Source of the DNA: Alphaproteobacteria bacterium
Lineage (GTDB): Bacteria > Pseudomonadota > Alphaproteobacteria > Geminicoccales > Geminicoccaceae
Length of the DNA stretch: 37,802 nucleotides
NCBI GenBank assembly: GCA_027045875.1
Contig: JALUAG010000086.1
Coordinates: 1 to 37,802 of the forward strand
Reading direction: 5' to 3'
Both the position numbers and the translations under genes were made by a program. Below, piece after piece: positions 13,746-18,371 of this stretch. The first letter of the stretch is position 1, and each line of letters begins with the position of its first letter. The notes below the pieces were generated by a model. It saw nothing but the letters and a program-made list of their open reading frames with translations, searched no databases and was not told the DNA's origin.

Positions 13746-13925
13746 ATGGAAGCGGAGTATCTGACCGGCCCCTGGTGGGGGCTTCTCATGCTCGTCGTTC
13801 TCGTCGTCGTCTTCATCGTGGCCTATCGGAAGATCAGGCGCGTGCGCGAAGAGGTCGATGAAGCCGTCGACAACGTGAAGGACGACGTGAAGGATGCCAT
13901 CAACGACATCAAGCGCAAGTTCTGA
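13746..13925 (+). CDS. Small single-pass membrane protein (59 aa)
   Basis: A 59-residue protein preceded by a very strong GGAAGGAGGTGA ribosome site. It has a short outside N-terminus, one membrane helix (GLLMLVVLVVVFIVAY) and a charged coiled-coil tail with alternating Val/Asp/Lys (EEVDEAVDNVKDDVKDAI). It overlaps the endolysin start by 32 bases. It could be a holin, antiholin or pinholin-type regulator; which one cannot be decided from sequence. Confidence 0.75.
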   Translation: MEAEYLTGPWWGLLMLVVLVVVFIVAYRKIRRVREEVDEAVDNVKDDVKDAINDIKRKF

Positions 13926-14523
13926 GCCGCGCTGGCGGGTGCACTGGCACTGGACCGCCGGCACATACCAGCCGAACCGGATCGAGCGCGAGCGATACCA
14001 TATCCTGATCGACGGCGAAGGACGGGAGCACAGCGGCCTCTACGCCATTGAGGATAACATCCCGCCGCTTAGGCCCGGCGGATACGCGGCGCACACACGG
14101 CGCGCCAATTCATGGGCGATCGGCGTGGCGCTGTGCGCCATGGGACGCGCAACGCAGTATCCTTTCGATCCGGGGCCATGGCCGATCACGGATGCGCAGC
14201 TGGAAGCGCTTGCGAAAGTCACGGCGCGGCTCTGCGAGCGTTACGGCATCCCGGTGACGCGGACGCGCGTGCTGAGCCACGCCGAGGTATGGCCGAGCCT
14301 CGGCGTCATGCAGCGCGGCAAGTGGGATATCACCTGGCTGCCGGACATGGCCACACCGGGCGATCCGATCGAGGTCGGTGACCGCTTGCGCGCGATGGTG
14401 CGTGAGCGGCTCGGAGACGGCCGCACAGAGGCGGAAGGGCCGGACTCACGCATGGGTGGTGGGGCGTTACAGGCGCTCATGCGCGCTCTCCGCCGCATAT
14501 TCGGAGCTTCGAGGGGCCCATGA
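13894..14523 (+). CDS. Endolysin: N-acetylmuramoyl-L-alanine amidase (Amidase_2)
   Basis: A 209-residue amidase of the T7-lysozyme/PGRP family that cuts the amide bond between muramic acid and the peptide stem. Zinc ligands visible are H19 in VHWHWTAG, H129 in VLSHAEV and D145 in GKWDITW; K143 sits where T7 lysozyme has its catalytic lysine. TDAQLEALAKVTARLCERYGIP is the usual family helix. There is no signal peptide, so release should depend on the holin encoded downstream. The start at 13894 overlaps the preceding gene. Confidence 0.85.
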   Translation: MPSTTSSASSEPRWRVHWHWTAGTYQPNRIERERYHILIDGEGREHSGLYAIEDNIPPLRPGGYAAHTRRANSWAIGVALCAMGRATQYPFDPGPWPITDAQLEALAKVTARLCERYGIPVTRTRVLSHAEVWPSLGVMQRGKWDITWLPDMATPGDPIEVGDRLRAMVRERLGDGRTEAEGPDSRMGGGALQALMRALRRIFGASRGP

Positions 14524-14824: not shown

Positions 14825-14943
14825 TCCGGGTTCCACGATGGCTCGAATGGGCGGCACGCATCTGGGACGCGATTCCGAATCCGGTACGCTGGGGGGCGCT
14901 CGGTGCCGGAGTGCTGGCGCTGCTGCTATGGTGGTGGACGTGA
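14821..14943 (+). CDS. Tiny membrane peptide (40 aa)
   Basis: A 40-residue peptide starting in an ATGA overlap with the holin stop. It has an amphipathic Trp/Arg start (VPRWLEWAARIWDAIPNPVRW) and a C-terminal hydrophobic helix ending in three Trp residues. The last base of its stop is the first base of the spanin start. Probably membrane inserted; it may tune the holin. Confidence 0.6.
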   Translation: MIRVPRWLEWAARIWDAIPNPVRWGALGAGVLALLLWWWT

Positions 14944-15230
14944 TGGGGCCGTTCCTGGGAATTCTCGCATGGCTTCGTGGCACGTGGCTCGGGCGCGCGA
15001 TCGTTTTCCTCGCCGGTGCACTTGTGATACTATGGAGCGCATACCGGAGAGGCAGGCGTGATGAGCGCAGAAACCAGGAGCTCCGGCGCGCCGAGGAATA
15101 CATCGAGGCGCGAAGGCGTGCCGACAAGGCGGCGGACAGGATCGACGCCGAGGCGCGTGATCTTGATGGCGCCGCTCTTGATGAGCGCCTGCGTGAGCTC
15201 GGTGCCCTCCGGAACAACGGCGGCCTGTGA
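14943..15230 (+). CDS. Rz-like inner-membrane spanin
   Basis: A 95-residue protein with an N-terminal membrane segment (residues about 17-33, GRAIVFLAGALVILWSAY). A long Arg/Glu/Ala periplasmic coiled coil follows (RRNQELRRAEEYIEARRRAD, then DERLRELGALRNNGG). That is the architecture of i-spanins, which bridge the inner membrane to an outer-membrane lipoprotein and fuse the membranes in the last step of lysis. A lipoprotein gene is nested in another frame at its 3' half, the classic Rz/Rz1 arrangement. Confidence 0.75.
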   Translation: MGPFLGILAWLRGTWLGRAIVFLAGALVILWSAYRRGRRDERRNQELRRAEEYIEARRRADKAADRIDAEARDLDGAALDERLRELGALRNNGGL

Positions 15231-15345
15231 CGCGCTCAGACCGTATCTCCCCAAGGTCTCGACGCAGGACACACGGCAGACGAAAGCCGATGTGCTGCGC
15301 TTCTACGAGGTCTTCGGGGCCGTATGCGACGGAGAGAAGCGATGA
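15061..15345 (+). CDS. Rz1-like outer-membrane lipoprotein spanin
   Basis: A frame that lies largely inside the Rz-like gene (+1 frame) and extends past it. An Arg-rich stretch precedes a hydrophobic VILMAPLLM and a lipobox-like LMSAC, so the mature protein would start at that Cys and be lipidated. The mature part is about 55 residues with TTAACDALRPYLPKVS. A GGAGAGG site 8 bases upstream supports ATG 15061. This gives an unusually long n-region, so a start near GTG 15157 cannot be excluded. Confidence 0.65.
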   Translation: MSAETRSSGAPRNTSRREGVPTRRRTGSTPRRVILMAPLLMSACVSSVPSGTTAACDALRPYLPKVSTQDTRQTKADVLRFYEVFGAVCDGEKR

Positions 15346-15638
15346 GGAAGGCGATCACGGCGGCCGCAATGGCCGCCTTTCTGATTTCCGGGTCGGCATT
15401 GGGGCAGGAAGCATGTGCTCCGCTGAAGGAAATGCGCTCCTACCTCGAGGAGCGGTTCAGCGAGAACGTTGGTGCCGTGCTCGTCGTCGGCGATGACGGC
15501 GCCCTCGTTATCTTCGCCAACCCCGAGACAGAGACATGGAGCCTCGTGTCGGTCGGCACGGATGGCACGGCGTGCCTGATCGGGGCAGGCGTCGGCTTCG
15601 TGTTTCCTAGGCTGAACAAGCCATCAGATCCGGCATGA
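15342..15638 (+). CDS. Small secreted protein (98 aa)
   Basis: A 98-residue protein with a clear signal peptide (MRKAITAAAMAAFLISGSALG, likely cut before QEAC). The mature beta-rich domain has two Cys residues (CAPLKEMRSYLEERF and GTACLIGAG) that could form a disulphide in the periplasm. GGAGAGAAG precedes the ATG, which overlaps the Rz1 stop. It lies between the spanins and the proton-channel gene and overlaps the latter by 4 bases. The function is unknown, and envelope location is inferred. Confidence 0.7.
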   Translation: MRKAITAAAMAAFLISGSALGQEACAPLKEMRSYLEERFSENVGAVLVVGDDGALVIFANPETETWSLVSVGTDGTACLIGAGVGFVFPRLNKPSDPA

Positions 15639-16153
15639 GCAGCGTCTTCATCTATCGCTGGGCCCTGGTTCAACTGTTCGGCATCGCCGGGCTGGCATGG
15701 GTGTGGGAACGCGGCTGGGCCGAGATGGTTGTCAGCGCAGACGTTAGCCGTGTGTCTTTCGCCATCATGGGCCTCTTCGCTCTTGCCTGGCTCGAGTGTG
15801 CCCGATGGGTCGCGCGAATGGCTCGACGCATGAGCCGCGGCTCTCTGTATCGCGCCGGACGCGAGGAACATGAGAGGGCCCGTCGCCGCTGGCTGCACAA
15901 GGCAAGCGAGTGGATGGTGCAGCTTGGGCTCCTCGGCACGGTGATCGGTATGGTGATGGCGTTCTCGTCGGTGTCAGCCGATGCGGCAAGCTCCGTCGAA
16001 GGCGTGCGGGCCCTCGTGTCACAGCTTATGCGCGGTGTCGGGGTTGCGCTCTACACGACGCTTGTCGGCATCGTGTTCGGGCTCTGGCACGAACTCAACG
16101 TCCGGATGATGGAGACGGCTGCCGCGGAATACTGGCACGGTGACGGCCGATGA
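15635..16153 (+). CDS. MotA/TolQ/ExbB-family proton-channel protein
   Basis: A 172-residue membrane protein. Hydrophobic helices lie at about residues 5-24, 40-58, 93-113 and 134-152. The last two carry the family signature: LGLLGTVIG at 97-105 and GVALYTTLVGIVFG at 136-149, with the channel-lining Thr positions (T102, T141/T142) present. A basic cytoplasmic loop (RRMSRGSLYRAGREEHERARRRW) separates the helix pairs as in ExbB and TolQ. Known relatives form a pentamer around a dimeric ExbD/TolR/MotB partner and turn proton flow into force. It overlaps both neighbours by 4 bases, so it is made together with the downstream partner. A phage copy is unusual, and its function is unknown. Confidence 0.75.
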   Translation: MSSVFIYRWALVQLFGIAGLAWVWERGWAEMVVSADVSRVSFAIMGLFALAWLECARWVARMARRMSRGSLYRAGREEHERARRRWLHKASEWMVQLGLLGTVIGMVMAFSSVSADAASSVEGVRALVSQLMRGVGVALYTTLVGIVFGLWHELNVRMMETAAAEYWHGDGR

Positions 16154-16746
16154 CCGGGATCATCGCGCGTGATCTGTTTCTGAACCTCGTGCTCGCTCTT
16201 CTCGGCCTCGTCGTGCTCATGCTGCCGTGGCTCAACCCGCCAACGCGATCCGACAGCACTCCGCCACCTGGAAATGTGTTCGTCGAGATGCGCTGGCCTG
16301 ACGGCCTGCAGGCGGACGTCGACCTGTGGGTGCGCGGACCAGGGGATGAACCGGTCGGCTATTCGCGCAAGAGTGGATATGTCTTCGATCTGCTGCGCGA
16401 TGATCTGGGCAGCACGGGGGACCCGACGGATCTGAACTTCGAGTTCGCCTTCTCGCGCGGCACACCTGCAGGCGAATACGTGGTCAACGTTCACATGTAC
16501 AACCCGAAGAGTGAATCCTTTCCGATCGTTGTGCAGGTGACTGTCGGTCTCCGTAGCGCGGACGGCGCGAGCGTCCGTGAAATCGCCAGCCGGACGATAG
16601 AGCTGTGGTCGGACGGGCAGGAAGAGACCGTGGTGCGGTTTCGTCTCGATGGCACGGGGCGGCTGGTGCCGGGCTCCGTCAATCACGTGTTCATGCCGTT
16701 GCGTGCGGCAGCGATGCGCAACGAAGCGCCGAGATGGGCACCATGA
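16150..16746 (+). CDS. Membrane-anchored partner with ExbD/TolR-like helix and VDLWV (DUF2135-like) domain
   Basis: A 198-residue protein with one N-terminal membrane helix (RDLFLNLVLALLGLVVLML, residues 7-25). D8 falls at the helix start, where ExbD, TolR and MotB keep the proton-carrying Asp. The periplasmic part is not a TolR or OmpA-type peptidoglycan binder. It is a beta domain with ADVDLWVRGPGDEPVGYS, LLRDDLGS and GTPAGEYVVNVHMY, similar in pattern to DUF2135/PPC-like folds. Overlapping start and stop with the channel gene upstream suggest a complex of the two. The role of D8 is inferred from position only. Confidence 0.65.
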   Translation: MTGIIARDLFLNLVLALLGLVVLMLPWLNPPTRSDSTPPPGNVFVEMRWPDGLQADVDLWVRGPGDEPVGYSRKSGYVFDLLRDDLGSTGDPTDLNFEFAFSRGTPAGEYVVNVHMYNPKSESFPIVVQVTVGLRSADGASVREIASRTIELWSDGQEETVVRFRLDGTGRLVPGSVNHVFMPLRAAAMRNEAPRWAP

Positions 16747-17213
16747 CCGCGGCATGGATCACGTTCTGGGCGACGGCGGCGATCTGTGGCGTGATGGCGC
16801 ATGCGGTCATTCGGACATGTTCGCGGTCCATATGGCGGCATGTGGCGGTTCCGCTCGTCGTCATTGCGATGACGACGCTCGCTATCGGGCTCGCACAGAC
16901 CGTCGGAGAGCCGAGGCCATGGCGTCTCGCATGGAACCAGCCTGACATGGCGCGCGTGCTCGGCTTCCGCATCGACGAAGGGCGGGCCATTCATGTGATG
17001 CTGGACAGGGACGGCGAGCCGCCGATCCTTCTCTCGCTTCCTTACAGCACGCGCGCTGCGCAAGAGCTAGAGGATGCAGAACGAGAACGCCAGCGGCGGC
17101 GCGGCAGGCCGGGTGAGATCATGATGCGTGTCGATCGATCCCTGGAACGTGATCCGTTCAGGTTCCATCCGCGCCCTGTCCCGAGTCGGCCGCCGAAGAC
17201 GGGCGGGGGGTGA
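16743..17213 (+). CDS. Third membrane protein of the proton-channel block (156 aa)
   Basis: A 156-residue protein with two membrane helices (about residues 4-24, WITFWATAAICGVMAHAV, and 33-53, HVAVPLVVIAMTTLAIGLAQT). A soluble domain follows with MARVLGFRIDEGRAIHVMLD and ILLSLPYSTRAAQELEDAERERQ. The C-terminus is Arg/Pro-rich and probably disordered. ATG 16743 overlaps the preceding stop; ATG 16734 is an alternative. No named family is recognised. Tight coupling implies it belongs with the two preceding genes. Confidence 0.65.
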   Translation: MTAAWITFWATAAICGVMAHAVIRTCSRSIWRHVAVPLVVIAMTTLAIGLAQTVGEPRPWRLAWNQPDMARVLGFRIDEGRAIHVMLDRDGEPPILLSLPYSTRAAQELEDAERERQRRRGRPGEIMMRVDRSLERDPFRFHPRPVPSRPPKTGGG

Positions 17214-17216
17214 GGC

Positions 17217-18371
17217 ATGGCGAACCCTGGCTATGTTGGCCGAGAGCACCTTCTCGAGGAGGCCATCGAGGCTGTGCGCAGGCATGGCAACATCTCTGCG
17301 GCTGCGCGTGCGCTCAACCTGCCGCGCGAAACTCTCAAGCACCGGCTGCATGCAGCCGCGAGATATGGCCTCGACGGTTCGGTACCGAAGCCCCCGCCGC
17401 CCGGGCAGGTGATCGCCGGCACCTCTACGCTCTACCGGCTCAATCCGGAAACCGGTGCCGAGGAGATCCTGAAATGGGTCAGGACGAAGGAAGACCCGAA
17501 CTGGCACGCGCTGCATGACGCCATCTGCGACGCCTTCGACGCCTACAAGGGCACCGCGAAGCTGCCTCCTGCGCCGAAACATGCCGATGACGATCTGCTC
17601 GCACTATACCCTCTGGCCGACTTCCATCTCGGCCTCTATGCATGGGGGGCAGAAGCAGGCGAAGATTGGGACGTCGACAAGGCATGCCGGCTTCTGCGCC
17701 GCGTGATGGGGGAGCTCGTCGCTCTTTCCCCGCCAGCCGGCACGGCCGTGCTGCTGAATCTGGGCGACTTCTTCCATACCGACACCTCGGACAATAGAAC
17801 GGCACAGGCCGGGCATCCGCTCGATGTCGACACTCGTTATGCCCGCGTTCTGACGTTCGGGGTGGAGCTCATACGAGACATGATCGAGCTCTGCGCCCAG
17901 AAGCACCGCAAGGTGATCGTTCGCAACCTCAAGGGCAACCACGACTATCACAGCGCCATCGCGCTCACGGCGGCGCTCGGTTCATTCTTCCACGGCAACG
18001 ACCGGATCATCGTCGATGCGTCACCCGCCCCGCACTGGTCCTATCGGCATGGTCGGACGCTGCTCGGGGCCACGCACGGCGACATGCTGAAGAAGCCGGA
18101 GCAGATGGCGATGCTGCTCGCGGCCGCCCGCGCCGAGGACTGGGGACAGACACGCTATCGGTATTTCCACTACGGGCATGTTCATCACGCTTCTGCCAAG
18201 GAAGTGGGCGGGGTGCTGGTCGAGTCGCACCGGACACTGGCGCCGAAAGATGCGTGGCATGCTGCTGCGGGCTACGTATCAGGCCGGGCCATGTCGGTGA
18301 TCGTCTACTCGGCCGAGCGTGGCGAGGTCGCCCGCATCACGCACAACATTCCACATTGGAGCGAAGGATGA
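17217..18371 (+). CDS. Helix-turn-helix plus calcineurin-like metallophosphoesterase
   Basis: A 384-residue protein. Residues about 10-48 are a DNA-binding helix-turn-helix (HGNISAAARALNLPRETLKHRL). Residues about 125-350 are a complete two-metal phosphoesterase core: DFH at 135-137, GD at 183-184, GNHD at 240-243, THGD at 286-289 and GHVHH at 320-324. The combination is common in podovirus-like phages but its substrate is unknown; a nuclease acting on DNA is plausible given the HTH. It follows the proton-channel block and overlaps the next gene by 4 bases. Confidence 0.8.
   Translation: MANPGYVGREHLLEEAIEAVRRHGNISAAARALNLPRETLKHRLHAAARYGLDGSVPKPPPPGQVIAGTSTLYRLNPETGAEEILKWVRTKEDPNWHALHDAICDAFDAYKGTAKLPPAPKHADDDLLALYPLADFHLGLYAWGAEAGEDWDVDKACRLLRRVMGELVALSPPAGTAVLLNLGDFFHTDTSDNRTAQAGHPLDVDTRYARVLTFGVELIRDMIELCAQKHRKVIVRNLKGNHDYHSAIALTAALGSFFHGNDRIIVDASPAPHWSYRHGRTLLGATHGDMLKKPEQMAMLLAAARAEDWGQTRYRYFHYGHVHHASAKEVGGVLVESHRTLAPKDAWHAAAGYVSGRAMSVIVYSAERGEVARITHNIPHWSEG

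Follow-up and report, generated by a model that had tools for sequence, protein, structure and literature searches.

A phage-borne gene trio that may encode an undescribed ion-driven motor of the inner membrane

The gene trio and its locus

Three adjacent genes, designated A, B and C, were analysed in a stretch of DNA recovered with an alphaproteobacterial genome (assembly of 3.5 Mb, 110 contigs). This stretch, referred to as the window, is the entire contig C86 (37,802 nt). The genes are predicted to encode a channel subunit of the MotA/TolQ/ExbB type, an Asp-bearing partner and a third membrane protein (Table 1). An earlier reading of the window, made from its letters and referred to as the sequence-only reading, had described the trio as joined by 4-base overlaps and as lying directly behind the spanins. 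The coordinates agree with both overlaps, A/B and B/C, and gene C starts with the ATG at 16743. The trio does not directly follow the spanins: a 104-residue open reading frame (ORF), which itself shares 4 bases with gene A, separates it from the spanin-like gene.

The window, whose phage genes include those for the large terminase, portal, DNA ejection protein, Erf-like annealing protein, exonuclease and major head protein, is probably a phage of the podovirus type. The contig ends inside the head gene and no terminal direct repeat of at least 12 bases occurs in the window, which makes it probable that the phage genome is incomplete or truncated at this point. An Rz1-like partner appears to be embedded in the spanin-like ORF, as read by eye, rather than by a tool, from a lipobox-like motif. 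The ORF immediately upstream of gene A is not part of the conserved set described below, and the downstream exonuclease gene is a frequent phage neighbour that lies outside the trio.

Table 1. Features of the window, with the best family or profile match (E value) or model.
Feature	Position	Strand	Length (aa)	Match or model
Gene A, minimal MotA/TolQ/ExbB-type channel subunit	15635–16153	+	172	PF01618, 8.3e-10, over cut-off
Gene B, ExbD/MotB-type partner: one helix with Asp8, Pro-rich linker, predicted periplasmic beta-sandwich	16150–16746	+	198	
Gene C, two helices (2–25, 28–53) and small beta-rich soluble domain	16743–17213	+	156	AlphaFold2
Upstream ORF, signal-peptide-like start	15324–15638	+	104	phrog_25396, 1.3e-7, function unknown
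Downstream gene, helix-turn-helix and metallophosphoesterase, DNA repair exonuclease family	17217–18371	+		phrog_704, 3.6e-97
Amidase endolysin, upstream lysis cassette	13894–14523	+		PF01510, 9.6e-14; phrog_5867, 2.5e-35
Spanin-like ORF	14931–15230			phrog_1026, Rz-like, 6.4e-8
Major head protein gene, cut by contig end	37239–37802			phrog_1328, profile positions 3–180 of 583

Gene A, the channel subunit

The sequence-only reading had picked out two motif-bearing helices in gene A, LGLLGTVIG and GVALYTTLVG, and had proposed a search against the proton-channel family PF01618. Both motifs are present, and the protein (P0001) scored 39 bits with the Pfam hidden Markov model (HMM), over the cut-off of 22.9. 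In an alignment of 54 A proteins (A5), P0001 included, 46 matched PF01618 at E ≤0.01. Comparison of the A5 profile with solved structures gave matches that span the two pore helices: MotA (8gqy, 3e-7), ZorA (8qyh, 1.7e-4), PomA (5.9e-4), TolQ (0.012) and ExbB (0.2).

Hydropathy suggests four membrane helices in A (approximately residues 3–21, 32–60, 97–121 and 126–149). The loop between the second and third (61–96) is basic, with 11 Lys and Arg and 4 Asp and Glu, and the layout reads as MotA-like with little cytoplasmic part. The I44–L97 stretch is a median of 29 residues long in viral proteins (range 29–79, 64 rows; 53 in the window) and 79 residues long in cellular proteins (4–116, 106 rows, four of which have 29), so that the two ranges overlap. 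We read the phage form as trimmed relative to the cellular one.

The predicted ion path is conserved at one of its two Thr positions and variable at the other. Position 142 is Thr or Ser in all 170 rows (64 viral; the 106 cellular rows have Thr throughout). Position 102 is Thr in 140 rows, Asn in 29 and Ala in one: every cellular row has Thr, and the viral rows divide into 34 Thr, 29 Asn and one Ala. The substitution of Asn for this pore Thr, found in 29/64 viral and 0/106 cellular rows, may reflect a change of ion or gating.

Gene B, the Asp-bearing partner

In gene B, Asp8 lies just ahead of a single hydrophobic span (9–27). The AlphaFold2 model (predicted local distance difference test, pLDDT, 90) comprises a helix (3–28), a linker and eight strands, with VDLWV at residues 57–61. 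The earlier description of B as one helix with Asp8 ahead of a VDLWV beta domain, in place of a peptidoglycan-binding domain, was thus confirmed. Across 172 rows (64 viral, 108 cellular), the residues D8, W49, D56, D58, D84, D85, G87, E98 and G108 are invariant.

No Pfam family matched window B (P0002) over its cut-off. Specifically, neither ExbD/TolR nor an OmpA-like peptidoglycan-binding family matched up to E 10, and the Pfam HMM search returned neither DUF2135 (PF09906) nor TerD (PF02342). For 53 B members searched at E 1, ExbD/TolR was absent from the matches listed (best 25 of 34 families); weak matches were to TcfC (11 members, best 0.026), DUF2135 (4, 0.0042) and PPC (2, 0.0099). The relationship emerged on profile-profile comparison with a DUF2135 profile built from 14 genome sequences. 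The viral B profile matched it with a probability of 97.4% (E 1.6e-11 for that single comparison) and a mostly cellular B profile with 95.9%; a profile of C, used as a control, gave 0.1%. By this measure, the predicted periplasmic domain of B and DUF2135 are remotely related; we take DUF2135 to be the E. coli YfaP type. Of the two families that the sequence-only reading had named for B, DUF2135 was therefore recovered and ExbD/TolR was not. DUF2135 is not mentioned in the literature searched, a body that leaves most subscription papers and preprints outside it.

The B model was also compared with 1000 candidate structures using VIA-align. The five best were 3ibz (TerD; Z 11.1 over 144 residues), 2qz7 (TerD homologue; 9.2), 2qng (unknown function; 9.1), 2kxt (TerD; 8.8) and 9a6r_B (another title; 8.8), followed by a DUF4425 entry at 6.5. 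Homology of B to TerD by sequence was rejected (hhalign, 0.6% and 0.3%); the comparison of TerD with DUF2135 gave 18%. Because the sequence link is just 0.6%, only the TerD fold is claimed for B, from VIA-align. The invariant acidic residues, together with the title of 2kxt, which refers to calcium binding, make a calcium site in the modelled domain likely. A fold search of BFVD returned four matches at ≤0.001, the single named one being an uncharacterized Acinetobacter phage protein.

Gene C, the third protein

The sequence-only reading had added a third gene with two helices and a soluble domain. Indeed, the AlphaFold2 model of C (pLDDT 85) has two helices followed by a small beta-rich domain at approximately residues 65–146, and the gene belongs to the set. 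The short loop between the two spans contains two basic and no acidic residues, which hints that the soluble domain is probably periplasmic. An OB-like (oligonucleotide/oligosaccharide-binding-like) fold was considered for this domain and set aside: the best Z, 7.2 to an eIF5A domain, lies within the range of common or chance likeness. Judged by family searches, A is the only member of the trio that belongs to a defined family.

Distribution in viruses

Viral sequences were scanned with B (29 loci) and with A (44 loci), and 7 phage records were added. From these 80 loci, 16 were dropped because they duplicated a contig or phage already represented, leaving 64 distinct records; three pairs with identical B ends were kept separate (L034/L035, L060/L062 and L073/L074). 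A and B occur in 64/64 records and C in 63/64, always in the order A-B-C and on one strand. The lone record that lacks C (L007) is on a contig that ends 267 bases behind B. Genes A and B are at least 100 bases apart in 17/63 records. Conservation of the trio among phages, which the sequence-only reading had proposed to survey, was thus established. A scan with C found 16 viral loci, all with A and B and three of them on contigs not met before; scans with B from phage P10VF and from a 92-kb contig found three loci, all complete and one new.

Among named phages, B matched 27 records, of which the census used seven; an eighth, RHph_I34, was added later and its trio confirmed. Searches with three different B proteins returned 27, 27 and 6 records, exclusively of Rhizobium and Sinorhizobium phages, and B is listed there without function. 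In Rhizobium phage 16-3, p038, p040 and p042 are the same trio in the same order, ahead of a phrog_704 exonuclease. Two trios are interrupted by homing endonuclease genes: in RHph_TM3_3_14B, a Seg-like gene (L003, 5246–6004) separates A from B, and in RHph_X2_25, an HNH gene (L001, 6550–7092) separates B from C.

Distribution in bacterial genomes

By gene content and order, A-B-C stands as an operon of its own in many Alphaproteobacteria and in some Gammaproteobacteria. The impression, voiced in the sequence-only reading, of similar trios in other alphaproteobacterial short-tailed phages holds in that trios do exist elsewhere; they are confined neither to short-tailed phages nor to phages. Of 387 alphaproteobacterial genomes, 69 have a B match, which is strong in 56 (E <1e-40, a line set at the gap from 7.1e-43 to 1.4e-22 after the list had been inspected). 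C was found in exactly these 56 (E ≤1.2e-6), plus one marginal match at 9.4e-4, and the 13 genomes with a weak B lack it. In 299 genomes of the phylum, B occurs in 15, four of which are outside the class and one of those four weak. Named carriers, drawn from the best 80 of 257 relatives, include Azospirillum brasilense, Tistrella mobilis, Skermanella aerolata, Mesorhizobium and some Gammaproteobacteria. Drafts titled Gemmatimonadaceae and Parcubacteria, one of each, are also listed and are possibly misbinned. Paired B matches lie side by side in two alphaproteobacterial genomes (G331:C7, 39116–40220; G390:C9, 123487–125286), and, in a plasmid collection, seven large Azospirillum replicons (NZ_CP032346.1 and six others) each have two places that encode B.

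Two genome searches contributed 45 and 63 cellular loci, 108 in all that are distinct by their B ends and that may include some borne by prophages. The order is A-B-C in 104/108 and A-C-B in one (L087, G039:C38); another (L165) is cut inside A. Gaps of at least 100 bases occur in 1/105 loci between A and B and in 1/105 between B and C. These counts bear on whether the trio might act simply as a leak, with protons flowing through an open channel and the infected cell losing membrane potential as a result. A channel-family protein with its Asp and Thr positions kept would fit such a leak, which, however, would have no need of soluble domains. Most of the invariant residues of B sit in its domain, C is absent from only 1/64 viral records (at a contig end) and 2/108 cellular loci, and bacteria retain the set in their genomes. 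We regard a leak as highly improbable.

The window's own genome carries a second, chromosomal-looking trio on contig C36 and has six PF01618 matches, including both trio A proteins. Phage subunits could in principle enter the host trio, or its Tol/Exb motor, and jam it, and the host has such targets. A jammer, however, could lose its ion-carrying residues, yet Asp8 is kept in 64/64 viral B proteins and Thr or Ser at position 142 in 64/64 viral A proteins. The retention of Asp and Thr argues for ion flow still being coupled in the phage version, and hence against a poison or decoy. Moreover, three genes are carried rather than one, and window A is only ~30% identical to the genome's other A. 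A decoy therefore appears very unlikely.

In the window's family, B occurs in 20/24 genomes (its own included) and as a single copy in 18. This distribution is relevant to the possibility that the trio serves superinfection exclusion or self-defence, as a proton-powered sensor or block at the envelope that resembles ZorAB without its cytoplasmic effectors. Such a role would accord with the best PADLOC matches of A, which are ZorA models (1.5e-6), and with the occurrence of the trio in both phages and bacterial genomes, as is the case for defence genes. The likeness to ZorA is limited, however, to the shared channel helices (30.3 bits against an NCBIfam cut-off of 100), and the long ZorA tail is missing. 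The B and C proteins scanned had no PADLOC match, bar one C to JukB at 0.083, and presence in 20/24 genomes, mostly in one copy, is unlike a patchy defence system. We consider exclusion unlikely.

Selection and history

Ratios of nonsynonymous to synonymous substitution rates (dN/dS) were 0.05–0.35 in 27 gene comparisons from nine close pairs (eight viral, one cellular); a tenth pair was saturated. A, B and C are under purifying selection. On a quick tree of B, which has long branches, the viral and cellular labels switch four times, and at least two of these switches are forced by starred branches, a pattern suggesting that exchange between phages and cells has happened more than once. Capture of the window trio from a cellular lineage is not claimed, as two trees disagree. 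In the tree of B, the window falls with cellular rows near Paracoccaceae (unstarred); in a tree of A, B and C together, it falls between the viral and cellular groups. The latter tree covers the set after removal of 21 distant viral rows, three more viral rows, L007, nine distant cellular rows, two long or split cellular ORFs, rows without three genes and approximately every second remaining cellular row.

Neighbouring genes and the question of lysis

A relative of the window's phrog_704 exonuclease starts ≤735 bases behind C in 32/64 viral records, and a trypsin-like protease related to HtrA is encoded at most 300 bases ahead of A in 33/64. The window has no such protease; the upstream ORF occupies that place. 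The protease of phage 16-3, p036 (L004, 4181–5080), has a signal-peptide-like start and a likeness to proteases found in certain defence systems (PADLOC RT-Protease model, 7e-12). In RHph_N3_13, an annotated trypsin-like peptidase is behind the trio instead (L080, 8459–9151).

The sequence-only reading had tied the trio to lysis, for which it could be a helper: a motor that assists the holin-endolysin-spanin pathway, either by pulling on the envelope or weakening it, or by collapsing the membrane potential. The endolysin and spanin-like genes that precede the trio in the window are in keeping with this, as are those of RHph_TM3_3_14B, in which an endolysin and an Rz-like spanin are encoded 3.3–3.6 kb upstream of A. 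The settings in other phages are different. P10VF and RHph_I34, two large and presumably lytic phages of the Pootjesviridae, have the trio between topoisomerase/gyrase genes and genes for a sigma factor, nuclease subunits and a clamp, which we presume, by analogy with T4, to be early or middle genes. Together with RHph_I1_18, where the trio adjoins transfer RNA (tRNA) genes, these phages place it among topoisomerase, sigma-factor, clamp, nucleotidyltransferase or tRNA genes. In RHph_N3_13, it lies between exonuclease, endonuclease and thymidylate synthase genes.

In 18 chromosomal loci, among whose neighbours lysis families were not searched, no gene recurs at a fixed place beside the trio. 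A few neighbour proteins recur in 4 to 6 of the 18, at scattered distances or in near relatives. Neighbours identified by eye, such as RecO, ParC (Tistrella) and UvrC (Meinhardsimonia), are presumably housekeeping proteins. The lack of recurring cellular neighbours and the replication-gene setting in large phages argue against a mainly lytic role. The proposed tie to lysis was thus unsupported or too narrow, the link is weak, and a lysis helper seems quite unlikely.

A proposed ion-driven motor

Based on these data, we propose, with a probability of roughly 0.6, that the trio encodes the phage version of an undescribed motor of the inner membrane, one built from three proteins, driven by protons and most likely at work during infection or lysogeny. 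In this proposal, A would form the channel ring, presumably with an A5:B2 stoichiometry. Protons would flow where A (positions 102 and 142) faces the Asp8 helix of B, and the movement so generated would be transmitted to the periplasmic DUF2135-like domain of B, which probably binds calcium, and to the soluble domain of C, which may contact B. These domains may in turn act on an envelope partner encoded away from the trio. As to the side and direction of the force, retention of the B periplasmic domain together with the shortened A loop in viruses suggests work on the periplasmic side. The phage would most likely use the motor in infection or lysogeny, rather than in lysis, to change or support the host envelope, for example by keeping it intact or by closing the host to other phages.

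Several observations weigh against this proposal. Asn occupies A position 102 in nearly half of the viral records (29/64), with which ion coupling may differ. At least 100 bases separate B from C in 34/63 viral records, and other genes often intervene. Two cellular loci are incomplete. In L189 (Azospirillum sp. TSO22-1), A and B are present but a search for C found nothing even at E 10; in L120 (G009:C192), B has no A within the 7 kb ahead of it, and the locus stops 281 bases after B. For C, neither Pfam nor a sequence search of the PDB gave a convincing family. TerD is not in the first 50 Foldseek rows for B, the best of which is DUF4425 at 9.9e-4, with low template modelling (TM) scores. Finally, lysis genes do precede the trio in the window and in 16-3-like phages, which leaves a role in lysis some probability.

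More tentatively, at odds a little short of even, the trio may stand next to Mot, Tol, Ton and Zor as a separate and new family of motors powered by ions. Its force output would be a membrane-tethered, calcium-binding domain of the DUF2135/TerD fold, and it would exist as an operon in some alphaproteobacterial genomes and as a trimmed version in many phages of these bacteria, the first such motor known from viruses, which would use it to exert mechanical force on the host envelope during infection. Only a few ion-driven motors of the inner membrane are known, namely the flagellar stator, Tol, Ton, Zorya and gliding motors, and each is a subject of study in itself. The trio would add an unnamed motor in which a third subunit is a regular member and the periplasmic output domain is of another kind, one present in the long-studied phage 16-3. 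As viruses carry and conserve it, its role is testable through phage deletion. The proposal also bears on the role of DUF2135 and TerD-like domains, and its relevance extends to the phage-inhibition phenotype of the ter genes, named in PMC8123226.

Comparison with known systems

The accessible part of PMC12505986 describes MotAB relatives with diverse appended domains, names Zorya as a phage defence and names no phage-borne set. The main text of PMC10783043, on alphaproteobacterial phages, does not mention TolQ, ExbB, MotA or a proton channel, and PMC10460002, on AP-16-3, does not mention transmembrane or membrane proteins, p040 or trypsin. The titles and abstract openings listed in a literature search, to which subscription papers and preprints are mostly external, describe no phage-borne MotA/TolQ-type motor or trio.

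Phage 16-3 has the trio in order before phrog_704, as does the window; unlike in the window, it lies behind a trypsin-like protease, and it is annotated without function. The channel helices of A resemble those of Zorya ZorA, both as a PADLOC model and as a solved structure. Unlike ZorA, A has no long tail, being 172 residues in total, and falls far below the threshold of NF033915, and window B and C (P0002, P0003) match no PADLOC model in a scan that, among neighbours of the trio, covered the 16-3 protease only. As regards Tol-Pal and Ton, the 18 chromosomal loci, in which TolA, TonB and Pal families were not searched, have no fourth gene that recurs at a fixed place.

The trio resembles MotAB, TolQR and ExbBD in that A exceeds the PF01618 cut-off, has both pore helices and keeps Thr or Ser at position 142, and in that a one-helix B with an invariant Asp is encoded next door. 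It differs from them in the periplasmic domain of B, which is neither ExbD/TolR nor OmpA-like, in the extra two-helix protein C and in the small cytoplasmic loop of viral A. The B domain resembles DUF2135 by profile-profile comparison, although P0002 has no HMM match to it, and resembles TerD in fold and, by eye, in acidic pattern, although not in sequence. Unlike both, it is predicted to be tethered to an Asp-bearing helix in the membrane.

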